This document shows, in pieces, positions 15,354 through 30,030 of a stretch of 64,000 nt of DNA. Source of the stretch: Microcoleus vaginatus PCC 9802 (lineage in GTDB: Bacteria; Cyanobacteriota; Cyanobacteriia; Cyanobacteriales; Microcoleaceae); contig CP031740.1 of assembly GCA_022701275.1 (NCBI GenBank), positions 2,863,001-2,927,000 of the forward strand. Reading direction: 5' to 3'. The translations under genes were made by a program, and so were the position numbers. Every line of letters begins with the position of its first letter. Within the stretch, counting starts at the first letter, position 1. The notes under the pieces are model-generated. The model saw only the letters and a list, made by a program, of their open reading frames with translations, did not search any database and had not been told where the DNA came from.

Positions 15354-18300
15354 TCAATTTTTATAGCTTGCTGGGTCATGAGTGTTCTTGCTAAGAAGAG
15401 CGGCGATCGTCTTAATTAATTGATCCGGTTCGATCGGCTTTGCCAGATGTCGGTGAAATCCAGCTTGCAAAGCTTGCTGTTGATTAAACTCGCCCGCATA
15501 GGCAGTCAGGGCGATCGCGGGAATCAGCCCACCCCGTTCTGGCGGCAGGGATCGCACTTGGCGCAACAGCATATAGCCATCCATCCCCGGCATTCCAATG
15601 TCACTCAACAGGACATCTGGCTGGAAATTAGTCAACGCTGTGAGGGCTTCTTGAGGGACAGCCACCGTCACTACCTCTGCACCTGCATCTTCTAGCAAAA
15701 AGGAAATCAAGTCTCGCATATCCGGCTCATCATCTACCACAAGTATCCGCATCCCGGATAACGGTTCATCCGCAGTCGATCGTTCGGAAAGTCCTGCAAG
15801 AGAGTTTTCTTGTCCCTTTACCTTCCCTGATAGGGGCAGTCTTACGGTAAAGGTAGCTCCTAGCCCTTCACCCGGGCTATCTGCGACAACGGTGCCGCCG
15901 TGCAGTTCGACTAGATGGCGCACGATCGCCAGCCCCAATCCCAAGCCACCAAACTTGCGGGTTGTAGCGCCATCTTTTTGCCGGAAGTAGTCAAACACAT
16001 AGGGTAAAAACTCCCGTGCGATGCCAATCCCTGTATCCGCCACCGTAATTTGAGCCTGATTACCAACACGAGTCAAATTCACCTCAACGCGCCCTCCGGC
16101 TGAGGTGAATTTGACCGCATTGGAAACAAGATTCCAAACAATCTGCTGCAAACGGCCCGAATCCCCCAAAATCTGTCCCACCTGAGGATCTAACACAGTC
16201 CGAATATCAATGGATTTGGCAACTGAAGCCAAATTGACGGTTTCGATCGCCGATTCCACCGTTAAAGCTAAATCGACTGGACGCATATTAAGACTGAGCT
16301 TGCCTTGAAGAATTTTCGAGACATCGAGCAAATCTTCAATCAGTTCACTTTGCAGCCTGGCGTTGCGTTCGATCGTCGCTAACGCCTGTGCCGTTTTCGC
16401 CGCATCCAGCTTGCCAGTTTGCAGCAGCTTTGACCAGCCCAAAATGGGATTGAGGGGCGATCGCAATTCATGGGATAGTACCGCTAAAAACTCATCCTTG
16501 ATGCGATTTACCTGTCTTAGCTGTTCCGCTTGCTGCTGGAGTGAATCGTTCAGGCTTGCCCGTTCCAGAGCGATCGCAATTTGGTCACAGGTCGATCGCA
16601 GCAGCTCGATTTCTGCAGGTGTAAAGTGCGTCCGAGTCCGACTGGCAAATGAGAGCGTTCCTAATAACCGCCCTTGAGCGATTAACGGTTGACCCGCGTA
16701 AGCCGTGATGCCCATTTCAGAGATGGCTTTAGCATTTGGATGAGTGGAAATTTGGGCTTGATTCAAGACAAGTTGCTGCTGCGTTTGGGCAACCAGTCCA
16801 CAGAGATATTCACCTAATTCGATCCATGCGATCGCCTGCGCCCTTTCTTCAGAGAGGCCATCGTAGTTTCTCAAATGCAGCATCAGGCGGTTGTCTTTTT
16901 CTTCCACCATGAAGTTGTAGTAACAGTGCAGATCGAGTTGCACTGAAAGTTTGCGGAATAGCGTGTGCATCAAAGCCAGAGGCTGTTGTGTCTTCAACAG
17001 ATCGCGGGTAGTTTCATAAAGCAATTGCAGTCGCTCACTTGCTTGCCGTTGTGCGGTCTTGTCCTGCATGATTTTGACAAATCCCTGCGGACAATCGGCT
17101 TCATTAAGCAGGGGCATCATCAATCCACTGGCCCAAAAGCGATTCCCATCTTTGCGGACGTGCCAGCGTTCGTCTTCGGCCCGTCCTTGCAGTAGAGCCG
17201 TTTGCCTCTCGCACTCGGCTTGTCCTTGTTCGTTATCTTCGGGCGTGAAGATCATCCGAATCGAGCAACCAATTGCTTCTGTCTCGGTATAGCCCAACAA
17301 CCTTTCTGCCCCTGAGTTCCAACTGGCAATGATGCCGTTAAGGTCGAGGGTAAAGATGGCATAATCTTTGGCGCTTTCAAAGATCAGACGGAGGCGAGAT
17401 TCACTCTGGCGCAGGGCTTCCTCAGCTTGCTTGTGGTCTTCAATATCAACACAAGAGCCTATGTAGCCCAAGAACTCACCTTCCAATCCGTAGCGAGGAA
17501 CAGCTTCATCCATAACCCAACGGTATATGCCATCAAAGCGTTTCAAGCGATATTCCATCTTGAACGGTTGACGGGCATCAAAGGCAGTCACATAAGTGCC
17601 TAAACATCGATCGAGGTCGTGGGGGTGGACTCCTTGTGCCCAACCATTGCCCCTTTCTTGCTCGATCGTCCGCCCCGTAAAGTTTAGCCACGGGAGGTTG
17701 AAGTAATAACAGAGTTTATCGGTGTCCGACATCCAAATCAGCACAGGGGCAGCATCTGCCATCAGCCGGAACCTTGCCTCACTTTCCCGTAGTGTGGCTT
17801 CGGCTTGTTTGCGATCGGTGATATCGTTGACCAGTGCTACAAACCCTTCAACTTTTCCCTGGCTATTGAAGCGGGGAACATAGGTTGCATTGACATAACG
17901 GGTTACACCATTTTTGTAGGGAATTTGACTTTCAAAGGTCACTTCCTCTCCTGCCAAGACTTGCTCAACATAAGGAAGAACCGCTTGATACCCCGTTTCG
18001 CCTAAAACCTCTGGGAGATGCTTGCCGTAGATTTCTTTTGCCTGAAGTCCAAACCATTCTTCATATGCTCGATTGTGGAAGCGGTAGCGTTGGTCTGAGT
18101 CTACAAAGGAGATCAAGGCAGGCACGGCATTGGTGACTAAACGAAGTTCTGCTTCTCGTTGTTGCAATACCTCCTCGCCAAGTTTTCGATCGGTAACATT
18201 TCGGAAATAAATGGTAATCCCGTTCGCGGCAGGGTAGGTGCGAACGTCATACCACCGATCGTGATCGCGATAAAACGCCGTGACTGATAAGGCCACGCGC

Positions 18301-20186
18301 TCGTTTGCCACGCGCCGATGAACCCGCTCAAACTCGCTGCCCTCGAGTCCTGGGAATTCTTCCCACAAATTCTTCCCCATCAGATCGCCCGAAGTGCGGT
18401 CTAGCAGAATTTCTGCTGACCGATTCATGTAAGTGAAACGCCAATTCTCATCAAGGGAGAAGAATCCATCATCAATGCTCTCAAGAATGTTCCGACTCTG
18501 CTCTTCGCTTTGACGCAACGCTTCTTCGGCTTGTTTGCGATCGCTGATGTCGATCAATACGCCCCGCGTCGAAATTAGGATGCCCTCAGCGTTGTAGGCG
18601 CAATCGCCCTTTGCCAAAATCCAACGAACGGTGCCATCTGCCCAAAGCGTCCGATATTCTATTTCAGTATGCGCTTGATTCGCTTTTAGCTCACTGATGA
18701 CGGTGTGAACGAATGGGCGATCGTCGGGATGCACGGCTTCTAAAAACACCTGCAGCGACATTGCTGTATTGACGGGTAAACCAAACATCGCTTTGGCTCT
18801 ATCCGTAAAACTCAGCGCGTCTGTTTCTATATCCAAATACCACAAACCAAAATTGCCGCCTTCGCAAGCCAATCGGAGCTGTTCTTCGCTCTCGCGCAAC
18901 GCCTGGAACGATCGATCTCGCTCGAAGGCGATGCTGGCAACTTGGGTGCCGAACTCGGCGAGTTTATATTCCCAATCCGTCGGCCTCCGCGCCTCGCTAA
19001 AGCAAAGCATCAGCGACCCCAGAGCTACATTGTCCTGCCCGATCACGGGCTGAGAATGACACCCTAGAATGCCATGAGCCACGCATAAATTTCGCCATGC
19101 TTGCGACCAGCCATCGTCGTTGGCAATGTCGGCGCAGGTCACGGGCTGACCGCAATACACTGCTTCGCCGCAGGTTCCCATGCACAAATCGTTAATCGGA
19201 GCATCCTTGAGTCCTTCACCAAAAGACGGTGGAAAGTCTGGAGTAATGGAAGCGTTAAACGTCAGTCGCCGATCGTCGGCTAGCAGGAAGCAGGCGCGGG
19301 TACTCGGATTTAGCCTGGATACTGAGACACACACGGCTGCCAGACAGTCGTCTAGTGGCTGTCCGAATGCGAGCGACTCCAGCAGTCGTTTCTGCTCGAT
19401 TAGGATGAGTTCCGCCTGTTTGCGATCGGTGATGTCAGCAAGCAAAACGGTCAGTCCACTGGAGGAAGGGTAAATTCGATGGTCGTGCCAACCATTCCAA
19501 GGAGAGTAGAGATAATCAAACTGAAGCGACGTTTGTTCGCGCATTGCCCGATGAAACTGCACGTAAGCATCGGTATCAACGGCAGCGGGAAATAGCTCCC
19601 AAACGTTCTGACCCAGAATCGCTGACCGCGGCATTCCAACCATTTCACAGTAGCGATCGTTGGCATAGGTGTAGCGCCAATCGCGATCGAGGATGTAAAA
19701 CCCATCGTTGATGCTAGAAAGTACCGTTTCTAGCTGTTCTTTTGCCTCAGTCGTCGCAGCTTGTGCTGCTTCGCCCTGCACCTGTTGTTCTAGTTCCATT
19801 GCCTCCTGTAAATTTTGCAAGGCTGCTTTCGCGTTTTTTATAGCAGTGCGCCACGATAGATTGAGTGAAGCGATCAATCCTGCCACGATCGAAAACATAC
19901 CCAACCGAACTATTGTCTCTACATTAGCTATCTGTAACGAATAGAACGGCTCAATAAAAAAATAGTTGATTGCCAGCGTGGATAAAATTGTTGCCAGCAA
20001 CCCAGCCCCTAAACTGCCATACCAGGTACTTACTATCACCGCGATGAAAAACAGGGGCGTCGTGGTTGGGTATATCCACGGTAAAAGCGATCGCGTTAGC
20101 CCCAGTGCCAGTGCCACGGAGAGGGTCGCCACACCATAGGGAAGTAGTCTAACTCTGAAAATGCTGTTGATTCCCTCTAAACTCAC
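15354..20186 (-). CDS. Membrane hybrid histidine kinase with six PAS, two GAF and a receiver
   Basis: This is a 1610-residue hybrid sensor kinase. The N-terminus (about 12-115) is a KdpD-type DUF4118 membrane block with several transmembrane helices. PAS modules follow near 150-260, 430-550, 565-680, 690-800, 815-930 and 945-1060. GAF domains lie near 265-410 and 1070-1215. The HisKA domain holds phosphoacceptor His1239 in SHELRSPLN. The ATPase domain carries NLVSNAVKF, ADTGIGI and GGLGLGLAI. The C-terminal receiver has acidic VVDDEPD, phosphoacceptor Asp1529 in SDIGMPGMDG, and the conserved Lys in LAKPIE. Phosphate should move from His to Asp and then on to a separate phosphotransfer protein that is not encoded here. 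A broken XRE-type regulator lies just upstream on the same strand. The signal is not predictable. Confidence 0.95.
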   Translation of the reverse strand: MSLEGINSIFRVRLLPYGVATLSVALALGLTRSLLPWIYPTTTPLFFIAVIVSTWYGSLGAGLLATILSTLAINYFFIEPFYSLQIANVETIVRLGMFSIVAGLIASLNLSWRTAIKNAKAALQNLQEAMELEQQVQGEAAQAATTEAKEQLETVLSSINDGFYILDRDWRYTYANDRYCEMVGMPRSAILGQNVWELFPAAVDTDAYVQFHRAMREQTSLQFDYLYSPWNGWHDHRIYPSSSGLTVLLADITDRKQAELILIEQKRLLESLAFGQPLDDCLAAVCVSVSRLNPSTRACFLLADDRRLTFNASITPDFPPSFGEGLKDAPINDLCMGTCGEAVYCGQPVTCADIANDDGWSQAWRNLCVAHGILGCHSQPVIGQDNVALGSLMLCFSEARRPTDWEYKLAEFGTQVASIAFERDRSFQALRESEEQLRLACEGGNFGLWYLDIETDALSFTDRAKAMFGLPVNTAMSLQVFLEAVHPDDRPFVHTVISELKANQAHTEIEYRTLWADGTVRWILAKGDCAYNAEGILISTRGVLIDISDRKQAEEALRQSEEQSRNILESIDDGFFSLDENWRFTYMNRSAEILLDRTSGDLMGKNLWEEFPGLEGSEFERVHRRVANERVALSVTAFYRDHDRWYDVRTYPAANGITIYFRNVTDRKLGEEVLQQREAELRLVTNAVPALISFVDSDQRYRFHNRAYEEWFGLQAKEIYGKHLPEVLGETGYQAVLPYVEQVLAGEEVTFESQIPYKNGVTRYVNATYVPRFNSQGKVEGFVALVNDITDRKQAEATLRESEARFRLMADAAPVLIWMSDTDKLCYYFNLPWLNFTGRTIEQERGNGWAQGVHPHDLDRCLGTYVTAFDARQPFKMEYRLKRFDGIYRWVMDEAVPRYGLEGEFLGYIGSCVDIEDHKQAEEALRQSESRLRLIFESAKDYAIFTLDLNGIIASWNSGAERLLGYTETEAIGCSIRMIFTPEDNEQGQAECERQTALLQGRAEDERWHVRKDGNRFWASGLMMPLLNEADCPQGFVKIMQDKTAQRQASERLQLLYETTRDLLKTQQPLALMHTLFRKLSVQLDLHCYYNFMVEEKDNRLMLHLRNYDGLSEERAQAIAWIELGEYLCGLVAQTQQQLVLNQAQISTHPNAKAISEMGITAYAGQPLIAQGRLLGTLSFASRTRTHFTPAEIELLRSTCDQIAIALERASLNDSLQQQAEQLRQVNRIKDEFLAVLSHELRSPLNPILGWSKLLQTGKLDAAKTAQALATIERNARLQSELIEDLLDVSKILQGKLSLNMRPVDLALTVESAIETVNLASVAKSIDIRTVLDPQVGQILGDSGRLQQIVWNLVSNAVKFTSAGGRVEVNLTRVGNQAQITVADTGIGIAREFLPYVFDYFRQKDGATTRKFGGLGLGLAIVRHLVELHGGTVVADSPGEGLGATFTVRLPLSGKVKGQENSLAGLSERSTADEPLSGMRILVVDDEPDMRDLISFLLEDAGAEVVTVAVPQEALTALTNFQPDVLLSDIGMPGMDGYMLLRQVRSLPPERGGLIPAIALTAYAGEFNQQQALQAGFHRHLAKPIEPDQLIKTIAALLSKNTHDPASYKN

Positions 20187-20228
20187 CCTTTGTACTCCTT
20201 ATCCGAAAAATATCTTGCTCCCAGCGCC

Positions 20229-20490
20229 TTACTGCAACGCTTCGCGAATGCAGTAAGGCGAATTACCTAACTCATCCAGCAAGATGTAAATTTGCTCGAG
20301 TGCCCAGCGAGAAGGGATAGCGTGTCCATTTTCCCAACGATTAATCGTGGGAATGGTCATCCCTCATTCATCCGCCAACTTTTTCTGAGACAGCTTCAGC
20401 GCTTGCCCCAGTTCTCGCCCCCAATTATCGATCGCTGGTTGTTCCGCCCTCAGCCGTTCTATTTTTTTGAGAGCCCTCAGAATTAACAGG
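20229..20490 (-). pseudogene. XRE-type helix-turn-helix regulator, nonsense-broken
   Basis: Read on the minus strand, this stretch encodes ...WGRELGQALKLSQKKLADE, then an in-frame TGA, then GMTIPTINRWENGHAIPS and WALEQIYILLDELG before a TAA at 20231-20229. That is the typical cyanobacterial XRE/Cro-like helix-turn-helix (LS.K.LAD.LG.T.PTINRWENG), with a stop where Leu is expected. No start codon is found upstream before another in-frame TAA near 20503, so the 5' end is also lost. The stop lies about 43 bases before the hybrid kinase start on the same strand. The gene may once have been a regulator or part of a larger neighbour. Programmed readthrough is unlikely but cannot be excluded from sequence. 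Confidence 0.75.
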
Positions 20491-20529
20491 TATAAAGCTT
20501 TTTATATTGTACACCTTTGACAGATCCCG

Positions 20530-20793
20530 GAGGTCCGTCATCTCTCTCAAGATAGGTTTTAGTTGTTGCGACTTGAACATATAAACGCTTCAGCTTACAA
20601 ACGCGCGTCTATTACCGGGGACGGTTTGGCTTTGCTGGAAAGTCTCTCGTTTATGCTTGCCCTAAAAGCTCTATTTTTGATGGTGTTGTGGCTTATTTTA
20701 AACACGCCATAGGCTTGAGTTTTCTTCATCCCAGAAAGCTCTCGGGCCTGGGATGACTTTGTGACGCAAGTCGTAACTGTAGAGTTTGGCCAT
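20530..20793 (-). pseudogene. IS630-type transposase relic
   Basis: Starting at ATG 20793-20791 on the minus strand, the frame reads MAKLYSYDLRHKVI, which is the characteristic first helix of cyanobacterial IS630/Tc1-type transposases. It then becomes unrelated and stops near 20696. Just after, in another frame, come VFKISHNTIK and, further on, KAKPSP. These match in order the FNISRNTI and QAKPN segments of the same helix-turn-helix region. Several stops follow. The element is therefore deleted and frameshifted, with no catalytic DDE part left. An imperfect inverted repeat (CTAACAG...CTGTTAG, about 20844-20865) lies upstream of the start and may be a remnant of the element's end. Confidence 0.7.
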
Positions 20794-21031
20794 GAGCGGA
20801 TTGAACATTATCAAGACGAGGGACTATCTCTAGTATCTGTCCTAACAGCCTTGGCGACTGTTAGTTATATTATTCGGATGTAACCGGATTGGATATGATT
20901 CATGATTCATGACTCCGCCCAACAATGGATACTTGCTTTCCGACAGGAGTTGTAAGCAGTTCAAAATTTTAGACCAAACTTTAATGTCCCAGATTCCTCT
21001 GTGGAATAAATCTAAAATCGACTAACTTGCT

Positions 21032-22507
21032 TTAAATTCCTTTGAGGAGCGATCGCCAATCCCGACAGCGTTTCAGGTAAATGCGAGCTACCTGATCGCT
21101 CGGATTTGTCCGCAAACATTCTTCAAACAATTTCCCCGCTTCTCGGAAATCCTTGCGATCGCACAATAACATAGCTTCATTATATACAGGCAAATTTGCT
21201 AGCTTGGCCGACAGAATTTCCGGCGAATCTGCATCAAATACCTCATATACTACGACATATTGAGATTTTCCTTTTACCTGTACTTTATCCACAATCCTAA
21301 TAGCATAATCGTTCGGATTTCGCAACCGTTCCAAAGTCTGCTGAGAAATTAACAGAGGTACGCCGTAATCTTTGGTCAATCCTTCAATGCGAGATGCTAG
21401 ATTAACAGCATCGCTAATCACAGTGCTGTCCATTCGGCTTTTACCCCCGACTGTCCCCAGCATCAAAGAACCCGAATTGATGCCAATTCCAATTTGAATC
21501 GGGACGTAGCCGACGCCTTGACGGTATTCGTTGTAATTTTTCAGGATATTTAGCATTGCAATACCCGCTTTCACTGCATCATCTGCAAAGTCACTAAACA
21601 AAGCCATAATTGCATCGCCGATGTATTTGTCAATAAACCCGTTATTGCTAGTAATGGCAGGCTCCATCCGCGAAAGATAAGCATTAATAAATTTAAAATT
21701 TTGTTGGGGAGTCATAGTTTCTGAAAGCGTCGTGAAATCGCGAATATCCGAAAAGAGCACCGACATTTCCTGCTGCACTTGGTCGCCTAAATTGACATCT
21801 ATAATACTTTCATATCCCAACAAATTTAGAAATTGGTGAGGCACAAATCTACCGTAGGCATCAGTTAACTCTGATTCGGCATCCAGGGATTTTTCTAAAT
21901 TTTGATTAAGATCAAATAGTTTCTTAATAAATAAATGGCGATCTGCTTCAGCTTCTTTGCGTTCCGTGACATCTTGAAAAACTGCGATCGCAAAAGCAAC
22001 TTTGCCACCCTCGTCAAAAATTGGCGTTCCCCAAATCTCAAGGGGAACTTTCTTGTGGGGGTGATGAATTTCCAGATCCTCAGCCGTCGCGTTTTCGCCC
22101 CTCAAAGCTCGGACGATCGGCAAATTCTCGAAAGGGTAAATAGTCTCAGTTCCCGCAATATAAACTTGATAACTTTCTGACAAATCCTCAACTGCATTTA
22201 AGGGCAAAACTCCTTGACCGAGTAACTGCTCTCCGGCGTTATTTACGTAGTAAGGTCTGCCTTGAGAATCCAGCACGAGCACACCTATGGGAATCGCTTC
22301 AAGAAATTGAGCCAGCTTGATTTCGCCTTCGCGCACCGCCTCAAATGCGCGATATCGCAACTCATTTTCAACCGTATCGGAATGTTGAGCAGTAGTTTCC
22401 AGCAAGATTTCCAGATCCGCTTTTTCCTCCTTCAAGTCTTCCACTTGCTGGCGCAATCTTTCTATCTCTAAAAGTAGCTGTTCTCTAGATGGTTGTTCTT
22501 CCAGCAT
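21032..22507 (-). CDS. PAS-linked class III adenylate/guanylate cyclase
   Basis: This 491-residue cytoplasmic protein joins an N-terminal coiled coil (about 8-70), a PAS domain (85-190) and a class III nucleotidyl cyclase domain (about 240-425), with a TPR-like tail (440-490). The catalytic residues are present. Metal-binding Asp254 (FSDIRDF) and Asp298 (YIGDAIM) are exactly 44 residues apart. The purine-selecting Lys294 is in FIDKYIGD, with Thr362 in the partner position (DSTVISD). Asn369 and Arg373 of VNLASR stabilise the transition state. The Lys/Thr pair is that of cyanobacterial adenylate cyclases such as CyaC and CyaB1, so cAMP is the expected product. It is the last of four close minus-strand genes, 70 bases after the STAS gene, which suggests control by or alongside a partner-switching module. 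Confidence 0.93.
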   Translation of the reverse strand: MLEEQPSREQLLLEIERLRQQVEDLKEEKADLEILLETTAQHSDTVENELRYRAFEAVREGEIKLAQFLEAIPIGVLVLDSQGRPYYVNNAGEQLLGQGVLPLNAVEDLSESYQVYIAGTETIYPFENLPIVRALRGENATAEDLEIHHPHKKVPLEIWGTPIFDEGGKVAFAIAVFQDVTERKEAEADRHLFIKKLFDLNQNLEKSLDAESELTDAYGRFVPHQFLNLLGYESIIDVNLGDQVQQEMSVLFSDIRDFTTLSETMTPQQNFKFINAYLSRMEPAITSNNGFIDKYIGDAIMALFSDFADDAVKAGIAMLNILKNYNEYRQGVGYVPIQIGIGINSGSLMLGTVGGKSRMDSTVISDAVNLASRIEGLTKDYGVPLLISQQTLERLRNPNDYAIRIVDKVQVKGKSQYVVVYEVFDADSPEILSAKLANLPVYNEAMLLCDRKDFREAGKLFEECLRTNPSDQVARIYLKRCRDWRSLLKGI

Positions 22508-22577
22508 AACTCGAGAATTTGCGCCTCGACTAACAAAAAAATTCTCAACAGCTCGCGCCCTAAAAGTAATCGTGTTT

Positions 22578-22928
22578 CTAGAAAAATTCCAACTGCAAAC
22601 CAGGCATCAGGCGCTGGAAATTCTTCAAAGATTTACCGTGCCAAGCTATGCTTTGAGAACCTTGTACCGCCAATTGCACCCTGGCTGTTTTGCGGACCTC
22701 GATAATAAACTTCGATAGCATATTGATGCCCGAACTGTTCAAAAATTCTAACTGCTGCAAATTGAGGGTAATTTTCGTCGGTTCCACGTCGGCAGCCTTC
22801 GTCAGCAACTGCGCTATCGGCGTGTACTCTGCAGGCCCGCTCAGTCTTAGAGATCCAAGAAAACTCACGGTTGCCGTTGCTGGATCGTAACAGATCTGGT
22901 AATCTTCTGTATTAATTTCCATAGCCAC
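22578..22928 (-). CDS. STAS-domain anti-sigma-factor antagonist-like protein
   Basis: This 116-residue protein has the STAS fold pattern. The central strand-loop-helix LEFLNSSGINMLSKF matches the SpoIIAA/RsbV phosphorylation loop (D/N-S-S-G), placing the probable phosphoacceptor at Ser66. In partner switching the unphosphorylated form binds the RsbW-like ATPase and releases its target. The Ser kinase and PP2C phosphatase candidates are encoded directly upstream on the same strand (ATPase gene ends 40 bases away). In Synechocystis the related icfG cluster encodes similar antagonists (Slr1856/Slr1859). A GTG at 22928 has AAGGGA in reach; an ATG two codons later is the alternative start. The C-terminal tail is longer than in minimal STAS proteins. 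Confidence 0.85.
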   Translation of the reverse strand: MAMEINTEDYQICYDPATATVSFLGSLRLSGPAEYTPIAQLLTKAADVEPTKITLNLQQLEFLNSSGINMLSKFIIEVRKTARVQLAVQGSQSIAWHGKSLKNFQRLMPGLQLEFF

Positions 22929-22968
22929 AAAAAAAAGTCCCTTAGATATTATCGATCACCAGCGTTGC

Positions 22969-23583
22969 TTATACTGTTAATTGCACCATAGTTGTCACCG
23001 CAATTACTTCCGGGTCTTGGTGCACGGTCTGGAATTTCCAGCCAAGTTTAGCAGTATAATCGGTGAGCATGGTCAACAAACCCAATCCAGAATTGGTACA
23101 GCTTTCGTCAGCAGCATTTTTTTCCAGCCGCTGAAGGTAAAGTTCGCTTGGCTCCGAGGACAGCAACTGCTGAATATAAGCCTGAAACTTGTCCACAGCT
23201 TGCGGAGAGATGCTGTTAGCAACTGAGAAAATCACACCGTCGCTCTCTAATTGCAGTTTAATATCGATCGGGTACTCCGAGGTTTCATCATTAAACTTCA
23301 TGGCATTTTCTAATAACTCGTTGGCAATGTAGCTAACAGCGCCTTTTATTTCAGCTTGTCTTTCAATTGTCGAGGGATCGTCTTCGTTGCGCGGAAAAAA
23401 AGTCGTCAGGTAGTCAGCGAGAAAATCCGCCGACAAACCGTTGTTCCGCCACCGCTGCTTGAGAGGAACCGAACTCGGAGAAAATCCCATTATTAAGTAT
23501 TCTTGGCTAGCGGGCTGCTCGATGAAATCGCCGAAAATCTGGGTCATATCGGTGTAAGAGCTAAAGTTTGAGATGAGGGGCAT
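22969..23583 (-). CDS. RsbW/SpoIIAB-like ATPase (anti-sigma-type serine kinase)
   Basis: This protein of about 204 residues has a GHKL ATPase N box (ELLENAMKFND, about 93-103), followed by an acidic strand (VIFSVANSI) in the position of the G1 box and a Gly-rich GLGLLTML segment near 170-177. It resembles Slr1861 of Synechocystis, an RsbW-type kinase for STAS antagonists in the icfG cluster. Family knowledge predicts that it phosphorylates the STAS protein encoded next and may sequester another partner. A C-terminal half longer than in Bacillus RsbW is typical of the cyanobacterial form. I use the ATG at 23583; a GTG one codon upstream is possible. It sits 41 bases after the phosphatase gene. 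No sigma factor gene lies in the window, so the final target is unknown. Confidence 0.82.
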   Translation of the reverse strand: MPLISNFSSYTDMTQIFGDFIEQPASQEYLIMGFSPSSVPLKQRWRNNGLSADFLADYLTTFFPRNEDDPSTIERQAEIKGAVSYIANELLENAMKFNDETSEYPIDIKLQLESDGVIFSVANSISPQAVDKFQAYIQQLLSSEPSELYLQRLEKNAADESCTNSGLGLLTMLTDYTAKLGWKFQTVHQDPEVIAVTTMVQLTV

Positions 23584-23624
23584 CACTAAATATATTTTAA
23601 ACTTTAGAAGGGATATCCAAGTAG

Positions 23625-25598
23625 TTATTTTTGTTTGAGTACCAGCAATGTGATGTCATCAAAAACTTTTTGTTCGCCGATGTGCGATCGCACGTCGTTA
23701 ATTACAGCCTGCCTGATTTCGGCAGCCGAACGCTGCGAATTAATCTCTATTACCTTAATTAACCGCTCTAAACCATAAAGCAGTTTATCCATATTTTTAG
23801 CTTCCGTAATCCCGTCAGTGTAAAGCACTACCACATCTCCTGAATACAACTGCACAATTGTTTCAGCAACAAATTCAGCAATATCTGCATCCAGTCCGAT
23901 CGGGAAACCCAAATCGATCGTATCAAACCGCTCTACACAACCGTTAGACCGCACTACAATCATTTCTTCGTGCTGGCCGCTCAACTTCAGCATTCCCTGC
24001 TGATAGTCGAGCAAGGCAAGGCTAGCGTTTCTGTCGCATTTCATCCGCTGGATGTTATCGTAAATTACACTGTTAATAGCGCTTAAAAATTTAACCGGGT
24101 CTGATTCATTGTAAGCGAGCAAAGTTCGGACGGCCGTTTGAACCATAATCATTACAACGCCGCTCTCCAATCCATGTCCCGTCACGTCGCCAATGCCAAT
24201 TTTCACTCTACCTTTGTGCTGGAGTACGTCGTAATAGTCGCCGCCTACTTCATCGGCAGCTTCCATAAATCCCGCAATATCTAAGCCCGTAACTTCCTTG
24301 AGTTCTCGGTCTTTCGGCAGCAGCATCTGCTGAATCTTGCGAGTAACGTCTAGTTCTGCGCTCATTCGGAGATTTTCAGCTTTTAAGCGATCGTTGAGAA
24401 CAGTAATTTCTTGATTAGCAGCAACTAAGGCATCGGCAATTTTGTTAAACGCAGCCACCACTTGCCCCAGTTCATCTCTGTTATCCAAAATAATTTTGTG
24501 ATCTACATTGCCACTTGCCATCTTTTTTGAGGCTTCGTCTAGGACAAATACAGTTTGCATAACGCTTCTGTAAAAAGCTACAAATAAATAAATAACTATT
24601 AGTAAAGTTATTAACACCAAAACCGAAATAAAAATTTTTTTTGTAATAAAAGTCTCAATACGTTTGTGCAGTAAGAAGTCTAATTCCTTAGAAGTTTCGT
24701 CCCATAGTTCAAAACTCGAATCCAGAACTCTATCGCTTCCATCAAGATAGGCATAATATTCCACTAAGGCTGTGGGATTAATCAGTTTATCTAGTTGCGC
24801 GGTTAGCAGATCTACTACCGAGTTAAATTTTGTCAATTTATCGCTTAATTTCGATCGCAGATTCCCGTGACGATTATTGCTAAATCCTACCTCCATATTG
24901 ATTGCTAAATCATGATTAAGTTCTCTCAATTTGCCAGCCAAAGTAATCAGTTTTGCTCTTGTTTCAGGTTTGGCATAGGAAAGCAAGCTGTTTTTTTGAG
25001 AAATTAGTCTAATTTCTGATAAAATTTTTTGCATTTCTGGAATCTTCAGCAAAGTTGCATCCATTAAATAATAGGTATCTAAATCAGGGTCTAATATGAG
25101 ATTGGAAATATCGCCGACGTGAGCGCTCAATCTATTAATATCTTCTGTTAAAGTTTGACATACAAAATCGTAAGTTTCTCTACTCCAATGGCTGCGACGA
25201 AGTTTAAAATTTTGCCACTTGTGATAGATTTTATTAAAATACTCGCTAGAAACTAATTCTTTTCGTAACTGACGATCTGTATATACCAGGGATTGAAAGT
25301 TCGCGTCAATCTTAGCTTCTAAATCTGCTATCGTATCTGGCGGGCTTAAATTGGTATTTAAAGGCTGATAATTTAACAGTTGAAGTTTAGGTATGTATTG
25401 CCTCAACTGGCGGAGCGGGCGCAGGTATTCATTACCGTAAATTTCTTTTTGGGCAAAATCAACCCTGCTATTAATTTCGGAAATCAGCAGGTACATGACT
25501 AAGGTTAACGGTATTGCAAATAGAAAACCGATTAGGGTAAATTTTTGAGGATAGCTCAACCGATTCATTAAATGGATTCCCAGGGATTTTCTACTCAT
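23625..25598 (-). CDS. Membrane PP2C (SpoIIE/RsbU-type) phosphatase with HAMP
   Basis: This protein of about 657 residues has a transmembrane helix near its start (FTLIGFLFAIPLTLVMYLLI), a long helical extracytoplasmic sensor and a second transmembrane helix (FISVLVLITLLIVIYLFVAF). A HAMP domain (about 365-420), a coiled coil and a PP2C-type phosphatase complete the protein. Metal ligands are seen in EVGGDYYD, GIGDVTGHG, LYTDGITEA and FDDITLLV. It should dephosphorylate the STAS antagonist in response to an external or membrane signal, as IcfG (Slr1860) does in Synechocystis. It is the first gene of the four-gene operon. The longest frame begins at a TTG 28 codons upstream, so I use the first ATG (25598); an ATG at 25568 just before the first helix is also reasonable. 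Confidence 0.9.
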   Translation of the reverse strand: MSRKSLGIHLMNRLSYPQKFTLIGFLFAIPLTLVMYLLISEINSRVDFAQKEIYGNEYLRPLRQLRQYIPKLQLLNYQPLNTNLSPPDTIADLEAKIDANFQSLVYTDRQLRKELVSSEYFNKIYHKWQNFKLRRSHWSRETYDFVCQTLTEDINRLSAHVGDISNLILDPDLDTYYLMDATLLKIPEMQKILSEIRLISQKNSLLSYAKPETRAKLITLAGKLRELNHDLAINMEVGFSNNRHGNLRSKLSDKLTKFNSVVDLLTAQLDKLINPTALVEYYAYLDGSDRVLDSSFELWDETSKELDFLLHKRIETFITKKIFISVLVLITLLIVIYLFVAFYRSVMQTVFVLDEASKKMASGNVDHKIILDNRDELGQVVAAFNKIADALVAANQEITVLNDRLKAENLRMSAELDVTRKIQQMLLPKDRELKEVTGLDIAGFMEAADEVGGDYYDVLQHKGRVKIGIGDVTGHGLESGVVMIMVQTAVRTLLAYNESDPVKFLSAINSVIYDNIQRMKCDRNASLALLDYQQGMLKLSGQHEEMIVVRSNGCVERFDTIDLGFPIGLDADIAEFVAETIVQLYSGDVVVLYTDGITEAKNMDKLLYGLERLIKVIEINSQRSAAEIRQAVINDVRSHIGEQKVFDDITLLVLKQK

Positions 25599-26126
25599 AA
25601 TCGATAGATTTGAAAAATATTGAACTAAAAAACTAACGTTGGCTACTAAAGTATTTCCCGGGACTATCGCTCTAAAAAACAATAATGCTAATACAATTAA
25701 TCAGCGATAGCTAGCTTAGTTTATAATGCGTTTCCGTCCTGTTGCAACAAGTTTTGTGGCATCCCTTTCATCTCGTCGGCTCAGCTCGCCTACCACAGTC
25801 TAAAACACCTTTAGCAGTTTTGGAACGATGAAAAGTCATTCGTACTGAGATTGTGGGACACAATTAGAGGATTTTAAGAATATTTACTTAAGCATAAATT
25901 TTTCTTAATACCCCGAGACAAAAAGTAAAAATTAAGTGATAACTGGGTAGTGCAAGTTTCCTGAAACACAACTGCCGGCCGCGAGTAGGAAATACTTGGG
26001 CCGCACCAGCAGTCAAGTTAGTTCTGCACAAAGGAACTAGCAGCATCAGCAAAAGTGCCTAAATAAGTATCTGCAGTTGAGTGTTCAGGAGCGATCGCGC
26101 ATTGTGTAAAGTGAGGCAGAGGGCGT
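25599..26126. promoter_or_regulatory. Divergent promoter region upstream of the partner-switching operon
   Basis: About 530 bases lie between the phosphatase start and the plus-strand gene at 26127. No gene is supported. The region should hold the operon promoter. AT-rich stretches occur near 25680-25730 and 25860-25940, but I see no convincing operator, including no TGTGA-N6-TCACA site. Confidence 0.4.
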
Positions 26127-26711
26127 ATGATGAAAAGAATCTCCACAAATAAGTTTCCCCAGAATAAAAACCGAGACCAAAAGCAGCCCAATCCTGTAAT
26201 CTTGGCTTTGGTGCTGACAGGAATTCTGGTATGGGAAATGTATCCGGCGCTAAGACACACCGCTGCGGCGAACGCGGGCGCTCTCAAAGATTCCCTTGCC
26301 CAGTTGGAAAAGCAACAGCAGCAAACCGCGCAGCAATTTTCCTCAGCAGCGCTGCCCCCAAAAATCAGCTATTCGGTATTGGCACTTAATACTCTAATTT
26401 CCGAACCGGGCAAATTGGCCGAGGCTACACGCCAAAATCCCCCGAACAAATTGCCCGCAACCGTAGCAGCAGCAGTCCGGCGAGAGTTGTCGGACTCCAC
26501 TGGCATTGCTGCTGACAAGTTGAAAGTAACTGAATCGAGCGGACAAAGTTGGCCGAATACTTGTTTAGGACTCTCCAAAGCGGATGAAATTTGCGGTCAA
26601 ATGATTGTCGAAGGTTGGCGGGTTGTGGTTTCTGATGGTAGGCAAACTTGGGTTTACCGTACTAATGCTAGGGGAAATATCTTGCGTTTGGAAAAAAAGT
26701 TAGCTAGGTAA
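26127..26711 (+). CDS. Conserved hypothetical protein, single membrane anchor
   Basis: The 194-residue protein begins with a basic, Asn/Lys/Gln-rich stretch. A single hydrophobic segment follows (PVILALVLTGILVWEMYP, about 23-40), which would act as a signal anchor. A helix rich in Gln (QLEKQQQQTAQQ, about 56-67) comes next. The C-terminal domain (about 100-194) contains two Cys (TCLGL and EICGQ) and the motifs VEGWRVVVSDG and WVYRTNARGN, which I associate with uncharacterised cyanobacterial periplasmic proteins. I cannot name a function. Two ATG codons are adjacent (26127, 26130) after a weak GAGG. The gene is divergent from the phosphatase operon and is followed by a repeat cluster. Confidence 0.75.
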   Translation: MMKRISTNKFPQNKNRDQKQPNPVILALVLTGILVWEMYPALRHTAAANAGALKDSLAQLEKQQQQTAQQFSSAALPPKISYSVLALNTLISEPGKLAEATRQNPPNKLPATVAAAVRRELSDSTGIAADKLKVTESSGQSWPNTCLGLSKADEICGQMIVEGWRVVVSDGRQTWVYRTNARGNILRLEKKLAR

Positions 26712-26747
26712 ATGTACCCCTGTGAAATGAAATATAAGTTTCGTTTT

Positions 26748-26957
26748 GGGACAGGCTTTTGGGCCTGTTCCACAAAGAGTGAATTTTCTTGTTGGAAGTT
26801 TGTTGTGGGCTTCTGGGAACAGGCAAGATGCCTGTTCCACAAAGAGTGAATTTTCTTGTTGGAAGTGTCTTGTGGGGTGAGCTTCTGGGAACAGGCAAGA
26901 TGCCTGTTCCACAAAGAGCGAGTTTTTTTGTGGGTGGTTTCTTGTGGGGTGGGCTTC
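26748..26957. repeat. Three tandem ~70-bp hairpin repeats
   Basis: Three consecutive units begin near 26748, 26815 and 26887 (spacing about 67 and 72 bases). Each starts with a perfect or near-perfect hairpin (GGAACAGGCA-AGA-TGCCTGTTCC in the second and third) and continues with CACAAAGAG[TC]GA, a T-rich run and GTGGG...GCTTCT. Copy one has a degenerate hairpin. The open frames across them on the minus strand are repeat translations, not genes. Confidence 0.85.
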
Positions 26958-26968
26958 TAGCCCGCCCC
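26946..26968 (-). terminator. Hairpin downstream of mnmA
   Basis: GGGGTGGGCT (26946-26955) pairs with AGCCCGCCCC (26959-26968) with one G-T pair. It begins 6 bases past the mnmA stop. No T-run follows on the minus strand, so termination is a guess from position. Confidence 0.55.
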
Positions 26969-26973
26969 TTGTC

Positions 26974-28065
26974 TTAATTGGGGAGCTGGTTTCTTTCGAT
27001 GATGCCGCCGCCCAACAGCACGTCTCCGTCATACCAAACAGCCGCTTGTCCGGGGGTAATGCTCAACTGCGGTTCGTCAAAAATCAACTTAACTCTTGTA
27101 CCGCCGGCTTTTTCCTCTGCTTGGGATGGTTCCACAGGAATAATTGTAGCGGGGACGGGGTGCGATCGATATCGAATCTGTACCTGAGCCCGAATTGGAG
27201 CCGTGGGCGCAGCCACAGAAACCCAATTCACTTTCTGGACAGTACATTCAGATTCTACTGCCAACTGTCGATCGCCCACAATTACCCGATTGCCAGCAGC
27301 ATCGAGTTCAATCACATACAGCGGTTCCGGTGCAGCAATCCCGAGTCCCTTCCGCTGGCCGATGGTGTAGTGGTGCACGCCGTCATGCTGTCCGAGCACC
27401 CGCCCTGACTTGTCCACAATGTCACCCTTTTGCGGCGCAATGTACTTATCCAGAAAAGCCCGCATCGAACCGTTACTTTCCACCAAGCACAAATCCTGAC
27501 TTTCCGGCTTATCAGCAGTTGTCAAGCCAAATTCCGCCGCAATTCTGCGAGTTTCTGTCTTGGTAATTTCCCCCAAAGGAAACTCCGTACCCGCCAACAA
27601 ATCCTGTGTTAAATCATACAAGAAATAAGACTGATCTTTCGCAGGGTCGATCGCCCGCAGCAACTGATAGCGACCTGTAGCAGCATCGTAAGTAATCCGG
27701 GCGTAGTGCCCTGTAGCGATTTTTTCAATTCCGAGTTCTTCGCGAGCATACTTAAGCATTGGCCCGAACTTCACAGTTTTATTGCACTGGGAACAAGGTA
27801 AAGGCGTAACTCCTGCACTGTAACCCTCCACCAAATAATCGACAATACTTGCCTGAAAGACCTCGCGGCTGTCAACAATGTGGTGGGGAACGCCCAAATC
27901 TTCGCAAATTTTAGCTGCATCGACCATTCCCTCAGAGCAGCACTGACCTTTGCCCTTCATCAACCACAGCGTTAAACCCACCACTTCATATCCCTGATGG
28001 TGTAAAATTGCGGCTGCTGCGGAACTATCGACCCCGCCGGAGAGGCCTACAACAATCTTGTTCAT
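26974..28065 (-). CDS. mnmA: tRNA-specific 2-thiouridylase MnmA
   Basis: The 363-residue enzyme thiolates U34 of Lys, Glu and Gln tRNAs in the cytoplasm. It activates the base with ATP and takes sulfur from a cysteine desulfurase relay. The PP-loop SGGVDSS is at about 9-15. The two catalytic cysteines are Cys91 (PLPCSQC) and Cys193 (DLCLVES), matching Cys102 and Cys199 of the E. coli enzyme. ATGHYAR and IGQRKGLG are further family signatures. The length is normal. The ATG is clear. The gene is monocistronic, divergent from nnr by about 115 bases, and followed by a hairpin. Confidence 0.97.
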
Positions 28066-28179
28066 GGTTGGAGAGAAATTGCTATTTTACTGTTACTTTG
28101 TTCGATCGAGCTAATTTATTATACCACAAGTATACTACAACTTGCCACTGCTGCTGTTAGCTGAAATTTTAGCACTAAT

Positions 28180-29832
28180 ATGACTATTCAAAAATTTGTT
28201 GTCACCGCCGACCAAATGCGGCAAATAGAAACGAGAATCTTTGCTGCTGGAATGCCAGTCGCAGCTTTAATGGAAAAAGTCGCGGGACTGATTGCTAGAC
28301 GCATTCAGGCGCTTTTGAAAGCGGAAGGAAGTTCGGCAACTAGCAGTGTACGGGATTTAACCGATAGAAGGAAAAGGGAAGAAGAGAAAAATCTTGTTAA
28401 TTCTCAATTGCCAGTTATCGGCGTATTGGTTGGGCCGGGACACAACGGCGGCGATGCTTTGGTTGTTGCCCGCGAATTGCACTTTCAAGGGTTCCAAGTA
28501 GTTATTTACTGCCCCTTTTCTAAACTCAAAGAACTAACAAAAAGTCACGCTGATTATGCGCGTTATTTAAATATTCCATTTGTTAACAAAATAGAAGCAC
28601 TAAAAAACTGCGACTTGCTCATTGATGGTTTATTTGGATTCGGATTAGAAAGAGAAATTACTAACTCCACAGCCACCACAATTGAGGAAATAAATAATTT
28701 AAATATCCCCGTTGTCAGTATAGATATTCCATCGGGAATTCATACAGATACCGGAGAAGTTTTGGGGACGGCTATCCGGGCAAAACATACATTATGTTTG
28801 GGTTTGTGGAAAATGGCATTTCTGCAAGACCGAGCGTTAGAATATATCGGCAGTTCCGAATTAATTGATTTTGATATTCCCGCAGCAGATATTGCAGCAA
28901 TATTGGGTGAAACGCCAGCAATACAACGCATTACAAAAGCCTCGGCAACTCAGCATTTGCCGTTACCCCGATCGCCAATTTCACACAAATACACCAACGG
29001 TCACTTACTACTTATTGCAGGTTCCCGCCGCTACAGCGGAGCAGCAATTTTGGCAGCATTGGGAGCAAGAGCTAGCGGCATCGGAATGCTGTCAATTGCC
29101 GTTCCTGAGTCGATTAAACCGATGTTGAGCAGTCAGTTGCCAGAGGCTTTAGTTATAGGATGTCCCGAAACCCAAAGCGGTGCAATTAGCGAATTGCCAG
29201 TAGCAATTGATTTGAGTTCTTATGATGCGATCGCGGCAGGGCCAGGTCTGACATTGGAAGCGGCAATAGCTGTAGAATCTGTACTGGAGAGCGATCAACC
29301 TCTGGTTTTAGATGCTGACGGTTTAAATATCCTCGCTCAACTCGGCACAGTCCCGATTTTGTCCGAACGCTCAGCAGTGACAATCATCACGCCTCACCCG
29401 GGCGAATTCAAGCGTTTATTTCCCGAATTAGCCGAGCAAACGGGCGATGATCGAATTGCCGCAACTCAAGCAGCAGCTCAGCTTTGCGGTGCAACGGTAT
29501 TGCTCAAAGGAGCCAGAGTTTGCATAAGTTGGAAGGATGAGGGCGATGCCCTACGAGATAGCTACGCTTCACGTACCATCACCTACCTCAATCCCGAAAG
29601 CACCCCAGCCCTCGCCAGAGGCGGCAGCGGCGACGTTCTTACAGGCTTGTTAGGGGGACTATTAGCAACAGCGATCGCCCGCAACTCCCCCCCCCAATCA
29701 GTTGCTGCAACAGCAGCTTGGTGGCACGCTCAAGCCGGAATCCTGGCTGCAAAAGAACGGACGGAATTAGGAGTAGATGCTTTTACTTTGACACAGTATT
29801 TAATTCCAACATTGCGAGAATTTGCTGAGTAA
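28180..29832 (+). CDS. nnr: Bifunctional NAD(P)H-hydrate epimerase / ADP-dependent dehydratase
   Basis: This 550-residue repair enzyme restores NAD(P)H from its damaged hydrate. The N-terminal half (about 1-240) is the YjeF_N epimerase, with VGPGHNGGDALVVAR and SIDIPSGIHTDTGE. The C-terminal half (about 255-545) is the ribokinase-like dehydratase, with AGSRRYSGAAILAA, AAGPGL, LDADGLN, TPHPGEF and ARGGSGDVLTG. All key motifs are present. Two unusual insertions are visible: about 20 charged residues near 50-72 in the epimerase (TDRRKREEEK), and about 12 residues near 454-467 in the dehydratase encoded by a palindromic repeat (29540-29580). Both keep frame. The gene starts at an ATG with no strong ribosome site and stands alone. 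Confidence 0.96.
   Translation: MTIQKFVVTADQMRQIETRIFAAGMPVAALMEKVAGLIARRIQALLKAEGSSATSSVRDLTDRRKREEEKNLVNSQLPVIGVLVGPGHNGGDALVVARELHFQGFQVVIYCPFSKLKELTKSHADYARYLNIPFVNKIEALKNCDLLIDGLFGFGLEREITNSTATTIEEINNLNIPVVSIDIPSGIHTDTGEVLGTAIRAKHTLCLGLWKMAFLQDRALEYIGSSELIDFDIPAADIAAILGETPAIQRITKASATQHLPLPRSPISHKYTNGHLLLIAGSRRYSGAAILAALGARASGIGMLSIAVPESIKPMLSSQLPEALVIGCPETQSGAISELPVAIDLSSYDAIAAGPGLTLEAAIAVESVLESDQPLVLDADGLNILAQLGTVPILSERSAVTIITPHPGEFKRLFPELAEQTGDDRIAATQAAAQLCGATVLLKGARVCISWKDEGDALRDSYASRTITYLNPESTPALARGGSGDVLTGLLGGLLATAIARNSPPQSVAATAAWWHAQAGILAAKERTELGVDAFTLTQYLIPTLREFAE
29540..29580. repeat. Palindromic repeat embedded in frame in nnr
   Basis: GGGCGATGCCCTACGAGATA and the following GCTACGCTTCACGTACCATC form an imperfect inverted repeat (GATG...TACG / CGTA...CATC). 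The style is that of short palindromic elements common between cyanobacterial genes. Here it encodes DEGDALRDSYASRTIT inside the dehydratase domain. Confidence 0.6.
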
Positions 29833-29988
29833 ACAATCAACAGTAGTTGGTAGGGTGCGTATCCCGCATCTTTGTATTGGGTAGGTGTCCACCGCGCACC
29901 TTAGCCCTTGGTTTGTATTGACAACGAAAGTCCTCATAAAAATATTACAACTTGCATTCCTTACGACAAACCAACGGGTAACTCAAAC

Positions 29989-30030
29989 GAGTGACACTCA
30001 CATGAGTGACACTCGAAAAAGTGACTGTGT
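29989..30030. promoter_or_regulatory. Iterated 15-bp operator-like repeats upstream of the peptidoglycan-binding gene
   Basis: The odd palindrome GAGTG-A-CACTC occurs at 29989-29999 and again at 30004-30014, with centres 15 bases apart (29994, 30009). A degenerate third copy (AAGTGACTGTG) is centred at 30024, keeping the period. They lie 71-112 bases before the ATG at 30101, where a regulator or an iteron-type protein could bind. Confidence 0.6.

Follow-up and report, generated by a model that had tools for sequence, protein, structure and literature searches.

An slr1658/slr1659 partner switch in Microcoleus vaginatus that may work like SiaABCD, with a class III adenylyl-type cyclase as its likely output

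Partner switches control sigma factors and a few diguanylate cyclases. In SiaABCD of Pseudomonas aeruginosa, a membrane PP2C phosphatase, a kinase of the GHKL fold, a STAS-like switch protein and a nucleotide cyclase are co-transcribed (PMC7278518; PMC7647112). Unphosphorylated SiaC binds to the stalk of the diguanylate cyclase SiaD and activates it, SiaD alone being an inactive pentamer. In the complex of the two proteins, T68 of SiaC inserts between the helices of the stalk, where it contacts S82 and Q86 and lies near D83, and phosphorylation of T68 or mutation of N67, T68 or S69 blocks SiaD binding (PMC8457831). Here we describe a four-gene locus in a 64,000-nt stretch of Microcoleus vaginatus PCC 9802 (contig CP031740.1, positions 2,863,001-2,927,000; genome 6.7 Mb), hereafter the window. 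We read it as a SiaABCD-like partner switch with a class III adenylyl-type cyclase as output, and put the probability of this reading at roughly 0.7.

In HsbA-HsbD and BgrV-BgrR, too, a partner-switch STAS protein acts on a nucleotide cyclase, by the same source (PMC8457831); unlike the enzyme considered here, the targets are diguanylate and not adenylyl cyclases. Within cyanobacteria, Slr1861/Ssr1600/SigC is described as the sole cascade shown to work by the classical mechanism, Slr1861 of the Synechocystis icfG cluster being a SpoIIAB homologue and an anti-SigC factor (PMC12329169, in part). HmpU/HmpV/HmpW of Nostoc punctiforme, compared by description, form a hormogonium partner switch in a filamentous cyanobacterium, and the portion of that description at hand mentions no cyclase (PMC8256260). 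Judged by titles and abstract beginnings among the matches listed, with few subscription papers or preprints covered, our literature search returned no paper that places a cyanobacterial adenylyl cyclase under a partner switch; the terms searched had no match in a second-messenger review (PMC10117731). Nor did the literature searched assign a target to the slr1658/slr1659 regulators of cyanobacteria, although Slr1659 appears, in the part of the source seen, in an inferred network (PMC4614683).

The four genes lie on the minus strand in the order membrane PP2C with HAMP, GHKL protein, STAS protein and PAS-class III cyclase. With starts at ATG 25598, ATG 23583, GTG 22928 and ATG 22507, the intergenic gaps are 41, 40 and 70 bases; the original prediction, made from the sequence, had listed the same ORFs (open reading frames), order and gaps, and the ORF calls with those starts bear it out. 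Its membrane PP2C with HAMP is likewise recovered by Pfam (SpoIIE, 2.5e-39; HAMP, 7.8e-7). A promoter scan found no minus-strand site between the four genes and one inside the cyclase, which says little because it found 7 sites against 11.9 in shuffles; a terminator scan at the locus was uninformative.

The presumed output (21032..22507, minus strand; 491 aa), assigned by Pfam, PDB homologues and catalytic motifs, consists of an N-terminal stalk, a PAS domain (21953..22303, minus; Pfam PAS_4, 1.1e-10), a class III nucleotidyl cyclase domain (21257..21778, minus; Pfam Guanylate_cyc, 4.3e-20, 72.5 bits against a cut-off of 21.9) and a weak C-terminal TPR match. Class III adenylyl cyclases are recognised by two metal-binding Asp, a Lys and a Thr or Asp for adenine, and an Asn and an Arg. 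We located the motifs FSDIRDF, DKYIGDAIM and STVISDAVNLASRIE, which we take to provide both metal Asp, Lys and Thr as the substrate pair, and the class III Asn and Arg. The PAS-cyclase with all catalytic residues that had been proposed is thus present at the level of motifs. By these sequence criteria the enzyme qualifies as a class III adenylyl cyclase and probably makes cyclic AMP (cAMP).

What sets this cyclase apart within its own genome (G000) is the stalk, a 38-residue motif (DLEiLLETTtEHSDtvEaeL) at residues 14-51 (22355..22468, minus strand) and the presumed docking site of the STAS protein. Among 36 class III cyclase matches in the genome, 35 of them over the Pfam cut-off, two alone carry it. 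Two PAS-cyclase paralogues among the matches listed, 63% and 58% identical to the window cyclase (the former with an internal stop), align from residues 54 and 53 on, and a profile search of the genome finds no stalk in either; the stalk therefore distinguishes the cyclase beside slr1659 from them. Three slr1659 genes of the genome exceed the cut-off, a fourth matches weakly (E 4.6e-5), and slr1658 is present twice. All three over-cut-off slr1659 genes have a neighbour with the motif, in each case at its N-terminus. In the window this neighbour is the cyclase, at L004 another cyclase, and at L005 a histidine kinase whose PAS and GAF domains were assigned by reading. These are the three such motifs in the genome; a profile of 16 segments finds them at E 1.7e-19 to 1.9e-13, the next match being at E 0.03.

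The tie between stalk and slr1659 extends over the phylum. Of 156 phylum genomes, 27 are matched by the 16-segment profile; slr1659 exceeds its cut-off in 32 of the 156, and 26 of the matched genomes belong to these. In the 27th (G121) the coil half alone is matched. Because this profile came from the loci under test, the search was repeated with a second profile, trained on the three own-genome segments alone and run on the 155 other genomes. At E<=1e-4 it matches 23 of the 31 other genomes with slr1659 over cut-off and none of the 124 without; at 1e-3 the counts are 23/31 and 2/124, the two slr1659-free genomes (G058, G083) being covered over columns 7-28. Fisher's p for the association, 5e-21, overstates its strength because the genomes are related.

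That relatedness also speaks for the alternative that the stalk is an ordinary dimerising coiled coil shared by common descent and not a docking site, as do the matches of profile columns 1-20 to generic coiled coils among PDB entries. We consider this alternative very improbable. Conservation peaks over columns 18-38, with a His invariant in 16/16 rows, the 124 slr1659-free genomes give no match at 1e-4, two paralogues have the same PAS-cyclase without the stalk, and the stalk precedes unrelated output domains. As a full explanation, a generic coiled coil was rejected on the stalkless paralogues, the column pattern in the PDB comparison and the genome distribution.

A docking function would also suit the way the motif is repeated. 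In proteins with more than one copy, 36/36 spacings between profile-supported copies, near-identical proteins included, equal 4 mod 7, namely 25 (3 cases), 46 (2), 53 (17) and 60 (14), consistent with docking sites that keep to a single coiled-coil phase; spacings of 32, 37 and 82 from a regex count were excluded as stray matches. At the HSDtvE position the cyanobacterial motif mostly reads [S/G/A]-D-x-x-E. A link between STAS residue 73 (Lys or Met) and a stalk Ser or Gly was tabulated and dropped, as it may merely follow clades.

Stalk genes lie close to the switch genes. Among 1601 ORFs in 41 slr1659 loci, 31 carry the stalk (E<=1e-5; 3 are the training proteins); all 31, in 25 loci, are on the slr1659 strand and within 1.76 kb of slr1659. 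Their outputs are diverse. Our tally gives 15 GGDEF proteins, of which Pfam identifies 7, NCBIfam 2 and a motif or near identity the other 6; 8 class III cyclases, 4 of them recognised through Pfam and 4 through phmmer; 3 histidine kinases, recognised by their H-box; 2 HAMP proteins, one of which narrowly misses the Pfam cut-off; and 3 proteins with PAS only. In a second set of named loci, the best 80 of 454 GHKL relatives, a stalk ORF lies within 3 kb of the GHKL or STAS gene in 48/80 loci and on the opposite strand in none. Class III cyclases, called by phmmer, make up 34 of the 54 stalk ORFs of this set, a share due to its many Microcoleus loci.

Six genomes in which slr1659 has no stalk gene next to it (G002, G005, G066, G070, G080, G116) carry one elsewhere, either on a different contig or at a distance of some 10 kb or more. 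The distant proteins are five GGDEF proteins (L076, L078, L080, L081, L082, by reading), a GGDEF-EAL-stalk-GGDEF protein (L079) and a CHASE2-stalk-PAS-histidine kinase (L077). The original prediction had suggested that the switch may act through the cyclase, to which the STAS protein or the ATPase would bind. The sequence comparisons support this and favour the STAS protein, because slr1659 genes adjoin different output classes with one stalk motif and some genomes carry such proteins elsewhere.

Chance alone does not account for the four-gene arrangement. The full-length cyclase with its stalk is kept in 28/29 genomes of the genus, with an internal stop in one (G183), and 3 others among the 61 family genomes searched also have it. 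Gene order was read in two of the genus genomes: G039 (L044) has that of the window, and G127 (L042) has a GGDEF gene between STAS and cyclase. The original prediction had staked itself on an order conserved beyond this strain, and in the named set, whose nearest member is Microcoleus sp. FACHB-DQ6 (GHKL protein 98% identical), PP2C, GHKL and then, within two genes, a stalk-class III cyclase follow one another in 24/80 loci. A recount showed no intact STAS ORF in L087 and L096, both among the 24, and revealed a stalk ORF at L103. The 24 are mostly Microcoleus or near relatives and include Coleofasciculus (L133) and Symplocastrum (L140). In 7 more named loci the GHKL gene precedes a stalk-class III cyclase without PP2C directly before it; Tychonema bourrellyi (L106) has PP2C, GHKL and STAS genes and no stalk ORF.

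The proteins upstream of the cyclase compare with SiaA, SiaB and SiaC as follows. The phosphatase (23625..25598, minus strand; 657 aa), a SiaA-like membrane PP2C of the SpoIIE type by Pfam, NCBIfam and motifs, is the presumed input sensor. Two segments, at about residues 19-45 and 314-353, are hydrophobic, and the acidic motifs GGDYYD, GDVTGHG, YTDGIT and DDITLL are present; the length of 657 aa recurs in L084 and others. The GHKL protein (22969..23583, minus strand), the presumed STAS kinase, has an uncertain start, many homologues beginning at the equivalent of ATG 23547. It scores above cut-off for the slr1658 family NF052618 (294.8 vs 200 bits), the superfamily NF047703 (265.3 vs 100) and Pfam DUF6272. 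In fold comparisons of its AlphaFold2 (AF2) model (predicted local distance difference test score, pLDDT, 88.9), VIA-align places SiaB first (6kko_A, Z 13.1, root-mean-square deviation (rmsd) 3.2, 154 residues aligned); Foldseek places SpoIIAB first by E-value and gives SiaB the highest TM-scores among the leading rows.

The STAS protein (22578..22928, minus strand), which may start at ATG 22922 rather than GTG 22928, is above cut-off for the NCBIfam slr1659 superfamily NF047705 (160.5 vs 100 bits), so that both regulators pass NCBIfam models of the slr1658/slr1659 superfamily known from cyanobacteria. Both the Foldseek E-value and VIA-align (Z 12.7, rmsd 2.5, 115 aligned) put its AF2 model (pLDDT 92.2) closest to SiaC. 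The SSG phosphorylation loop proposed earlier is present as N64-S65-S66-G67 (22728..22739, minus strand), is invariant in 35/35 aligned slr1659 proteins and, presumed to be the site of phosphorylation, may be set beside the SiaC loop N67-T68-S69.

SiaABCD and the window locus thus share the component set, the fold of the switch protein and a stalk N-terminal to the cyclase. The likeness may extend to the docking site: SiaD S82, D83 and Q86 have the spacing S-D-x-x-[E/Q] of the cyanobacterial motif, and the SiaD sites S50 and S82 are 32 residues apart, again 4 mod 7, as would happen by luck once in 7. Seven stalk-GGDEF carriers were scanned with the SiaD model and all gave a match under the cut-off; the L070 and L066 proteins cover the 252 model positions almost wholly, stalk included (2-252 and 6-252). 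The match of SiaD (7e6g_A) to the L061 protein runs into the stalk (65-290 on 48-267), but PleD rows in the same PDB comparison likewise begin before the GGDEF domain; with L070 the match is 166-372 on 64-261. The outputs differ, that of the window being of the class III adenylyl type with PAS and one stalk motif, whereas SiaD is a GGDEF enzyme with two.

Several findings weigh against so close a comparison, or against the role proposed for the stalk. The window proteins fall under the cut-offs of the SiaA, SiaB and SiaC models: the phosphatase scores 81.3 bits against 700 for the NCBIfam SiaA equivalog (NF038263), the GHKL protein 25.3 against 85 for the SiaB family kinase (NF038262), and the STAS protein 17.3 against 24.5 for the Pfam SiaC family (PF09345) and, just under, 21.3 against 22.6 for Pfam STAS. 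In the fold comparisons SiaB is tied with UsfX (8ih8_C, Z 13.0, rmsd 3.0, 128 aligned) and SiaC, within 1 Z unit, with RsfB (Z 11.8, rmsd 2.3, 101 aligned). The GHKL protein conserves the N-box NELLENAxK and has an invariant Asn in place of the DxGxG box; with that box lost, its kinase activity is not assured. The register in which the SiaD residues resemble the stalk motif was chosen from published residue numbers alone, and a search of the PDB set with the stalk profile did not find SiaD. In 8/31 of the other slr1659 genomes the three-segment profile finds no stalk even at 1e-3, in 32/80 of the loci found through the GHKL protein a stalk ORF is missing within 3 kb (a few being ended by a contig edge), and neither genomes nor motif repeats give independent counts, both being related. 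SiaABCD appears to be the nearest working analogue, and we file the locus as working like it and not as a member, because its models are not passed, DxGxG is lost and 8/31 slr1659 genomes are stalkless.

The genes, their families and predicted folds, the recurrence of their order and the genome-wide association of slr1659 with the stalk lead us to infer STAS binding, phosphorylation, activation rather than inhibition, and cAMP as the product. The membrane PP2C would sense a signal and dephosphorylate the slr1659-type STAS protein, which the slr1658-type GHKL protein would phosphorylate in the NSSG loop. Unphosphorylated STAS protein would dock on the N-terminal helical stalk of the cyclase at HSDtvE and alter the coiled coil leading into the PAS and catalytic domains, so that cAMP production rises; phosphorylation would release it. 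GGDEF enzymes and histidine kinases that carry this stalk at related loci would be subject to a like switch. The sign might be the opposite, with stalk-bound STAS protein keeping the cyclase inactive until phosphorylation frees it. Nothing in the sequence fixes the sign, and the measured precedent is SiaC-SiaD alone (PMC8457831, in part); we think inhibition rather unlikely, since there unphosphorylated SiaC activates and SiaD by itself is an inactive pentamer.

The switch genes could also control an anti-sigma factor or another target in the manner of icfG or Rsb, the cyclase being a mere neighbour or acting upstream. SpoIIAB, RsbW and UsfX are indeed close fold neighbours. We nevertheless find this quite improbable, as reading of the ORFs in window positions 17000-30000 recognised no sigma factor gene and the stalk motif tracks slr1659 over genomes and output classes. 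The original prediction had compared the locus with the icfG cluster (Slr1861, Slr1856, Slr1859, IcfG) and had made no mention of SiaABCD, the closer analogue; the two cyanobacterial loci do share PP2C, a GHKL kinase and STAS proteins. As a relative, icfG looks wrong, because Slr1861, compared by description, is a SpoIIAB homologue acting on SigC, whereas the window ATPase passes slr1658 and has SiaB, tied with UsfX, as its best fold match; the seen part of the icfG account, moreover, names no cyclase in the cluster (PMC12329169). On family and fold, icfG and Rsb were set aside as the parent system, with Slr1861 again compared by description.

The label RsbW-like that had been given to the ATPase holds for the presence of a GHKL protein and fails for the family. 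RsbW/SpoIIAB kinases have a DxGxG box, and antagonists of the RsbV/SpoIIAA type have a D-S-S/T-G loop. The GHKL protein lacks the RsbW/SpoIIAB features in its Pfam scores (HATPase_c 18.5 vs 26.4, HATPase_c_2 15.6 vs 27.4 bits) and belongs to slr1658 instead; the STAS protein lacks those of RsbV/SpoIIAA, being under the Pfam STAS cut-off and having N-S-S-G in the loop.

Beyond the SiaABCD-like switch of the window, the tag recurs on cyclic di-GMP (c-di-GMP) enzymes and on sensor kinases, a pattern suggestive of a plug-in design that serves several signals. We lean, by a little, towards the stalk being a portable address tag read by slr1659 STAS proteins, such that one phosphorylation switch could drive cAMP, c-di-GMP and histidine-kinase outputs, swap one for another over evolutionary time and, at certain loci, adjust cAMP and c-di-GMP jointly. 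Four of the 25 linked loci (L042, L059, L062, L063) combine a stalk-GGDEF protein with a stalk-class III cyclase next to one set of switch genes. At L125 (9117-10808) a single protein reads stalk-stalk-GGDEF-cyclase; its GGDEF site is YGGEEL, and its cyclase half, 51% identical to the L140 cyclase over 269 residues, seems by reading to have lost key residues. This fusion could be a fossil of an exchange in which c-di-GMP took the place of cAMP as output. If the proposed switch holds, partner switches would also govern cAMP through a short control motif recognisable in sequence, the uncharacterised slr1658 and slr1659 families would gain a function, and the rewiring of one switch to different second messengers would be explained. 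Direct tests would be offered in a genome with 35 class III cyclases over cut-off, two alone of which are tagged.

In the gammaproteobacterium Candidatus Parabeggiatoa (L139:333-3588) a GHKL protein (slr1658) and a STAS protein (slr1659) accompany a stalk-PAS-histidine kinase, a set perhaps acquired from cyanobacteria by horizontal transfer; six other Thiotrichaceae loci (L115, L143, L147, L151, L156, L161) have no stalk ORF, and in L147 and L156 the sequence ends within 1 kb of the STAS gene. Four slr1659 loci without a linked stalk were scanned, and their neighbours proved unrelated: a lysyl-tRNA synthetase (L039), MscS-like channels (L051, L065) and an aldo/keto reductase (L073).

A few further arrangements were seen. 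The window genome has a second switch (L004:6224-14180), in which a 1834-aa protein with a C-terminal PP2C, a stalk-cyclase, slr1658 and slr1659 occur in an order repeated in G039 (L052). Its third slr1659 gene (L005:4681-7311) has no adjoining slr1658 and is followed by the stalk-histidine kinase, as also in L038 and L048. The 36 class III cyclase matches of this genome strike us as a large set. Stalk and HAMP proteins of about 160 aa (L041:8281-8766; L050:8169-8660), in which Pfam finds no catalytic domain, are perhaps adaptors. An 859-aa class III cyclase without stalk (L053:9285-11864), 58% identical to the window cyclase over residues 64-481, lies upstream of slr1658, where Microcoleus has PP2C; stalkless class III cyclases occupy this position also in L150 (Planktothrix) and L153 (uncultured Oscillatoriales). 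In the window, the cyclase is followed on the same strand by a multi-PAS hybrid histidine kinase (by reading; 15354-20186, 1610 aa), and a histidine kinase ORF of 1611-1613 aa likewise follows in L083, L084 and L087.

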